The position numbers were made by a program, and so were the translations under genes. A stretch of 54,009 nucleotides of DNA from an uncultured bacterium (lineage in GTDB: Bacteria > Patescibacteriota > Minisyncoccia > UBA6257 > GWB1-50-10), in NCBI GenBank assembly GCA_903847915.1, contig CAINEW010000028.1, positions 1 through 54,009 on the forward strand. The letters are read 5' to 3'. Under the pieces are notes generated by a model. It worked only from the letters and a program-made list of their open reading frames with translations. It was not told where the DNA came from and made no database searches. Positions 2,544-18,594 of the stretch are shown piece after piece (position 1 is the stretch's first letter; each line of letters starts with the position of its first letter).

Positions 2544-2702
2544 ATGAATAGCCATATCAGAAATTTTGTAATTATCGCGCATATTGATCGTCGTCCCTCA
2601 ACGAATTCGGGACTCCCTCACAACCTCTCGGTTTTGAGTAATTTCCTACACGGGAAAACTTTCCTTTTCCCGATCCCTTTGCTTAATCAATATGCACGAT
2701 AA
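2544..2702 (+). CDS. 52-codon leader ORF: truncated copy of the LepA N-terminus fused to a repeat core
   Basis: MNSHIRNFVIIAHIDR versus LepA MHDNIRNFVIIAHIDH; GAGAGG upstream of ATG; stop overlaps the lepA start by 11 nt. Confidence 0.5.
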   Translation: MNSHIRNFVIIAHIDRRPSTNSGLPHNLSVLSNFLHGKTFLFPIPLLNQYAR

Positions 2703-4866: not shown

Positions 4867-4873
4867 TTTTAAT

Positions 4874-4945
4874 ATATAATTTGCGGGTATAATACAGTGT
4901 CCCGCCTTCTCCATCAGTAGACGGATTCGGCGAGGCAAGGTACTA
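4874..4945. repeat. Terminal element F: truncated copy of tRNA-Gly 5' end plus CCGCC-type hairpin core
   Basis: ATATAATTTGCGGGTATAATACAGTG (4874-4899) matches 23/26 nt of the tRNA-Gly 5' region (4987-5012), then CCGCCTTCTCCATCAGTAGACGGATTCGGCG. Confidence 0.6.
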
Positions 4946-4995: not shown

Positions 4996-5069
4996 GCGAG
5001 TGTAGTACAGTGGTAGTACGCTAGCTTCCCAAGCTAGATACAAGGGTTCAATTCCCTTCACTCGCACCA
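4996..5069 (+). tRNA. tRNA-Gly (anticodon CCC), CCA encoded
   Basis: Acceptor GCGAGTG/CACTCGC, anticodon stem CTAGC-TTCCCAA-GCTAG, T-loop TTCAATT, terminal ACCA. Confidence 0.95.
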
Positions 5070-5070
5070 A

Positions 5071-5196
5071 AAAAGGGAATCGAACAAGCAAAGGGGTCGG
5101 GAAAAGGAGAGTTTTCCCGTGGCGGAAATACTAAAACCGATGGGTTTTAGGGAGTGAGCTGATGCGAACGACGTTCACTTCCCTTCACTCGCACCA
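5071..5196. repeat. Terminal fold-back element B (tRNA-Gly 3' end)
   Basis: Inverted arm AAGGGAATCGAAC, core with hairpins GGGAAAA..TTTTCCC and AAAACC..GGTTTT, then a 24-nt direct copy of the tRNA 3' end (23/24 identical). Confidence 0.8.
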
Positions 5197-5237
5197 AATT
5201 AACTAATAACAAAGAGATTATGGTATACTTAAGTCCA

Positions 5238-18452: not shown

Positions 18453-18455
18453 TCT

Positions 18456-18594
18456 CGCGTGGAGAGGATTTGAACGGAGGGGTGGGTCGGAGGGGAAACG
18501 GACGTGTCCCATCCGTGTAGGAAATAACTCAAAACCGAGGGTTGTGAGGGAGCGAGTGAATACAAGCGACGTTCAATTCCTCTCCCGCGCACCA
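18456..18594. repeat. Terminal fold-back element C (tRNA-Leu 3' end)
   Basis: Inverted arm CGCGTGGAGAGGATTTGAAC, core sharing GTGTAGGAAATAACTCAAAACCGAGGGTTGTGAGGGAG with element A, direct tRNA-Leu 3'-end copy at 18571-18594 (21/24). Confidence 0.8.

Follow-up and report, generated by a model that had tools for sequence, protein, structure and literature searches.

What is a partial second copy of a tRNA 3' end doing immediately downstream of an intact tRNA-Gly(CCC) gene? The locus that raises this question lies in a stretch of 54,009 nt of DNA, which was analysed as a whole and is called the window below. An earlier note had taken the arrangement for an att-type duplication at a tRNA 3' end. 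The layout it described is right: an intact gene is followed by an insert and by a partial direct copy. The description is incomplete, however, in that the core of ~100 nt is itself the element and belongs to a multi-copy structured family, the inverted arm next to it is a target-copied part of that element, the targets are not tRNA genes alone, and one core serves at unrelated targets, each time with ends specific to the target.

The tRNA-Gly(CCC) locus

All parts of this copy lie on the forward strand. The target gene (4996-5069) is intact according to ARAGORN and the Rfam tRNA model (75.6 bits). Its duplicated part, A, extends from G53 in the T-loop to just past the CCA (5046-5071) and recurs as A2, the right end of the element, at 5173-5198, with 25 of 26 positions identical (96%), an A to C change in the T-loop and a start-to-start distance of 127 nt. 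The direct copy, previously given as 24 nt, is therefore genuine and reaches 26 nt; the end of the described interval has to be moved from 5196 to 5198. Directly 3' of the gene lies A' (AAGGGAATCGAAC, 13 nt, 5073-5085), an inverted copy of the target T-loop and T-stem that forms the left end of the element and had already been noticed as an inverted arm.

The core (5085-5150) matches covariance model R1, built from 25 cores, with 84.5 bits and an E-value of 8.6e-21. Both hairpins mentioned in the earlier note are present in it: hairpin 1 (5098-5119), with arms CGGGAAAA (5098-5105) and TTTTCCCG (5112-5119), is paired in 100% of the 25 aligned copies, and hairpin 2 (5131-5150), with arms at 5131-5137 and 5144-5150, has 89.7% of its alignment cells paired. 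The variable 3' part of the core (5151-5172), delimited from sequence and folds, often holds a third hairpin in other copies. In a test made on natural sequences, A', core and A2 of the tRNA-Gly copy form one closed multi-helix fold (z = -3.0), and 1 of 200 shuffles was as good.

The duplication is not due to chance, since a strong A/A2 direct repeat (score of at least 15) occurs in 104 of the 138 distinct core copies used for the layout analysis, compared with a mean score of 9 when the same comparison is made with the flanks of other copies. About a quarter of the copies have no clear direct repeat, and some of these are decayed. As for the possibility that the downstream copy belongs to an unrelated degraded tRNA gene, it is rejected because A2 copies the adjoining tRNA-Gly(CCC) itself, the T-loop is where the repeat begins in the majority of copies, and protein genes, too, have homologous cores beside them. 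Upstream of the partial copy there are no D-arm or anticodon-arm remnants; the core, which copies at protein genes share, occupies that place.

Besides lepA, the neighbours of the element in the window comprise a DivIC-like gene and proteins for which Pfam gives no match. No integrase is found in the 54,009 nt, as had been stated before, and the one tyrosine recombinase detected in the genome sits on another contig (C6). Upstream of tRNA-Gly, at positions 4870-4925, the promoter region and 5' half of a tRNA-Gly are present as a further copy (30 nt, 87%), followed by CCGCCTTCTCCATCAGTAGACGGATTCGGCGAGG; tRNA-Pro(GGG) (L006) is likewise preceded by a similar sequence that includes a 5' half copy. 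This is probably another kind of small element, located at the D-loop.

Copies, distribution and conserved fold

Further copies in the same genome were first found by searching with the tRNA-Gly stretch, and the R1 search reports 15 full-length copies and two partial matches in the 624-kb genome. The window contains three copies, at tRNA-Gly, at tRNA-Leu(GAG) (18330) and at lepA (2692). The tRNA-Leu(GAG) copy (18454-18594, forward strand, R1 match) lies 3' of the gene and its terminator-like hairpin, and consists of A' (18454-18475), core (18475-18548) and A2 (18571-18594). Its A2 holds the CCA and the T-stem now missing from the present gene, which suggests that this copy is probably old. Since such old copies indicate that insertions can persist, some copies may have acquired a role. 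The lepA copy (2544-2696, reverse strand, R1 match) stands at the 5' end of the gene, identified by Pfam, with a partial lepA start as A2 (2544-2592), core at 2618-2685 on the reverse strand and A' at about 2684-2696; intact lepA begins beside it at 2692.

Among the 42 genomes of the same taxonomic family, the core is present in 33 according to R1 and in 30 according to plain DNA search, and with stricter filters it is found in 34 of 380 genomes sampled across the phylum. An exact 56-base consensus, searched against genome contigs, returned two Patescibacteria records only, one of them Candidatus Colwellbacteria. Rfam 15, used with strict and permissive settings, reports only tRNA at gathering score and no known RNA family. 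The element has no match in phage and plasmid records by distant blastn, and two consensus patterns have none in viral contigs.

Both hairpins covary, with 34 two-sided changes in the 25 aligned cores versus 8.5 in shuffles; changes on both sides affect 5 of 8 pairs in hairpin 1 and 3 of 7 pairs in hairpin 2. Because they are conserved by compensatory change, the alignment argues that the hairpins matter in single-stranded form, RNA or DNA. In genome G000, four cores (L044, L047, L021 and L058) carry a GC-rich palindrome, CCCGCCCG...GCCAGCCCGACAAAT...CGGGCGGG, between hairpin 1 and hairpin 2, which looks like a separate REP-like repeat.

Targets, ends and cores

The existence of the family and of a common layout can be stated with high confidence. 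Read outward from the intact gene, the order is A, often a terminator-like hairpin, A', core and A2. About 100 copies lie at tRNA genes of nearly all specificities, and the other targets are tmRNA, fusA and rplK (both 5' and 3'), lepA (5'), rplL and rpsI (3') and an RNase-H-like gene (5'), with protein identities assigned from translated sequence and a Pfam match for the lepA of the window alone. The core is oriented with the gene at 3' ends and against it at 5' ends; as a rule, the gene stays intact and its partial copy is found on the far side of the core.

At tRNA targets the repeat most often starts 22 nt before the 3' end of the gene (38 of 81), which corresponds to T-loop position ~53/54, and its end varies from the acceptor stem to 83 nt beyond the gene, so that the duplicated block often takes in the terminator. 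A', 11-20 nt long, starts at or within a few nucleotides of the same target point. As A' and the A/A2 repeat begin at about one point, the unit A'-core-A2 amounts to an inverted target duplication with the core at its centre. Recent duplications measure ~75-105 nt (L127, L149 and L172); in L149, L172 and L187 the direct repeat extends through terminator, A' and the first core bases, and L129 has whole tandem units at one locus. A' is rare without a core (2 of 43 tRNAs passed as core-free by a loose filter score at least 10), and it was rejected as an independent feature for this reason.

A second, unrelated core (GCCGGAGC...GAGGCGGTGGCTAGA) is found at tRNA genes in the same A-A'-core-A2 order (L141, L182, L224, L227 and L244), and the layout is therefore not tied to one core. 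Other arrangements were also seen at tRNA genes. In L020 (tRNA-Ile GAT) and L040 (tRNA-Ala CGC) an intact tRNA gene stands between inverted repeats, apparently nested in the halves of another tRNA gene. L247 and L248, 3' of tRNA-Gly(CCC), contain repeated partial tRNA copies that start from the anticodon loop (GGGACCAAGGT...), and their sequence suggests another element type with crossover in that loop.

Comparison with relatives, the check proposed in the earlier note, reveals both occupied and empty sites, at the fusA start and at tRNA-Lys(TTT). At the former, G014 has the element, whereas in G015, of the same genus, it is absent and rpsG and fusA are a few bases apart (G017 has unread bases at this site). 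At tRNA-Lys(TTT), the site is occupied in G014 and G016 and empty in G015 and G017. At tRNA-Asp, G014, G015 and G016 are occupied, and G017 has the terminator and a solo A' only. The tRNA-Gly(CCC) genes found in relatives are without an R1-type element, and G015 carries the second type of core there.

The ends of the element follow the target. Among 101 tRNA-linked copies, 80 have an A2 for which the adjoining tRNA is the best match of all targets, and in 70 the match of A' to its own tRNA falls within the top 5%; the mean A' match is 11.7 for the own tRNA versus 6.8 for other targets. Protein-gene targets are also telling, since their alleles differ between genomes: the fusA sequence at the element site is clearly different in G015 and G014, and in the G014 copy (L140) A and A2 agree at 66 of 66 nt and A' fits the local allele. 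The core, in contrast, follows the genome. According to a crude pairwise alignment score, which is not a tree, core similarity equals 0.512 for the same genome and different targets, 0.403 for different genera and the same target, and 0.406 for background; the nearest neighbour of a core shares its genome 26 times (2.8 expected) and its target 5 times (2.2 expected). Given that the ends match the target and core similarity tracks the genome, the core appears to reach new targets within a lineage with new ends each time. Genome-wise likeness could come in part from gene conversion among cores after insertion, but conversion would not produce ends of this kind.

The T-loop of A2 is regularly altered (identity to A of 0.35-0.83 per position, partly owing to a one-base shift), whereas the T-loop sequence is kept in A' (0.86-0.99). 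In most copies GTTCRA has become GTTCRC or GTGARA with the rest of the duplication intact, for instance at 5173-5180. Because of this alteration, A'/A2 pairing is weaker than A'/A pairing, and it was rejected as a conserved feature. As for a guide-RNA reading of A', no constant flanking motif was seen by eye.

Candidate explanations

The pattern is probably that of a short (~100 nt), protein-less and non-autonomous mobile element of Patescibacteria with target-copied ends. We infer that mobility is its cause and that insertion is replicative. A bolder version, in which the mobile element has no fixed ends and consists of a structured core only, both termini being built from the target at each insertion by a replicative process independent of resident transposase, integrase or reverse transcriptase, is offered tentatively, with doubt weighing somewhat more than belief.

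No candidate for the mobilising enzyme stands out. No integrase gene is found inside the elements, and no full-length autonomous element or autonomous copy among the loci examined. Y1 genes occur in 21 of the 42 family genomes, including one weak match in the present genome, and are undetected in copy-rich G003-G006, G009, G012, G035 and G029. The reverse transcriptase domain RVT_1 is undetected in many copy-rich genomes, and G000 has a short match below the cut-off. In genome G009, with 8 copies, all three candidates (tyrosine recombinase, Y1 transposase and RVT_1 reverse transcriptase) are undetected, and neither it nor G022, with 13 copies, has PF00589 matches; a possible explanation for G009 is enzyme loss after a past burst. 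None of the three enzymes shows a pattern with copy number, and all were rejected in the mobilising role.

Under the mobile-element reading, insertion would occur at a fixed point in strongly conserved genes (T-loop 53/54 in tRNA genes). The stretch from this point to the gene end or slightly beyond would be duplicated directly, giving A and A2, so that the gene stays whole, and a further ~11-20 nt from the same point would be copied in inverted form as A', adjoining the left side of the core. As the target would be copied in inverted form on the left of the core and directly on its right, the core with its hairpins would form the middle of a target-derived stem. In what seems the simplest scheme, one of several giving such geometry, the target would break at the fixed point and the broken end would be extended along a core template, which may be RNA or single-stranded DNA; a switch back onto the target strand with fold-back copying would then yield A', and another template switch, at a downstream position that varies, would set the length of the direct duplication. 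Confidence in any specific chemistry is low.

Several known systems share parts of this picture. Partial and complete tRNA copies flanking an insert are a recognised signature of tRNA integration (PMC9897764), which fits an integrase-dependent element (ICE, IME or satellite) in minimal form or left as a scar, with attP carrying the gene end, A as attL, A2 as attR and tyrosine recombinase crossover in the tRNA loop. As in such elements, insertion affects gene 3' ends and leaves one complete and one partial gene copy, and a direct repeat of the gene end flanks the insert (104 of 138 copies). The T-loop position of the crossover region, an identity block that often includes the terminator, and targets like rplL, rpsI and tmRNA also resemble those of integrases. 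However, the element is ~100 nt long, is free of cargo genes and has an inverted target copy that integration leaves unexplained. A fixed attP with one target, or one target sequence, per lineage is ruled against by the re-use of one core family at dozens of unrelated targets with target-specific ends, cores grouping by genome and not by target. Along with the missing matches in phage and plasmid collections, the absence of two consensus patterns from viral contigs and the lack of a detected tyrosine recombinase in G009 and G022, this makes an integrase scar unlikely. A hairpin MITE mobilised by REP/RAYT-like or IS200/IS605 Y1 transposases is highly improbable. MITEs and REP sequences are likewise short, multi-copy, non-coding, hairpin-rich and non-autonomous, and the element resembles MITEs in having a target-site duplication; the small size, the two hairpins and the Y1 genes of half the family genomes agree with this reading. 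In contrast to them, the element very strongly prefers conserved gene ends and has no fixed terminal repeats: both ends are target-copied, where a MITE would have conserved terminal inverted repeats in common with an autonomous transposon. REP/RAYT and IS200/IS605 elements are not known to make target duplications or target-copied arms, and Y1 is undetected in several copy-rich genomes.

A functional RNA in the tRNA trailer, such as a regulator, or a signal for processing, able to pair with the tRNA to which it belongs, would agree with the strong RNA-like covariation, the closed multi-helix fold and the complementarity of A' to the T-arm. It is nonetheless very unlikely, given that a terminator-like hairpin often precedes the element, that at the 5' ends of fusA, lepA, rplK and RNase H it has the antisense orientation relative to the gene, and that relatives carry it only sporadically. 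The least probable explanation is tandem duplication and decay of tRNA genes with local template-switch mutations and no mobile element: alternating direct and inverted copies favour slippage, and tandem units (L129) and repeats running into the core (L149, L172 and L187) point the same way, but a homologous core at many unrelated loci, protein genes among them, cannot arise locally. As for further systems, target-primed retroelements (R2/LINE, group II introns) also have one fixed and one variable duplication end, as a varying position of the second cut would produce; unlike them, the element has an inverted target arm and no retroelement body, and reverse transcriptase is undetected in many carriers. 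Integron attC and CTX phage attP likewise form a stem from two distant inverted arms with hairpins between, whereas here the arms vary with each target and attC consensus core sites are not evident.

This family of small target-copying mobile elements is apparently unreported: no description of it was found in the open literature, a search beyond whose reach most subscription journals lay. If the mobile-element reading is true, Patescibacteria, a large group whose genomes are tiny and in which few mobile elements are known, would harbour a fairly common one that has so far gone undescribed. The element would solve the problem of how to insert safely into essential genes: it would copy the end of the gene while carrying no fixed attachment site. 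It would also explain many of the partial tRNA copies in Patescibacteria genomes, which can mislead annotation. If the ends are truly rebuilt for each target, the insertion chemistry would be unlike that of known elements.
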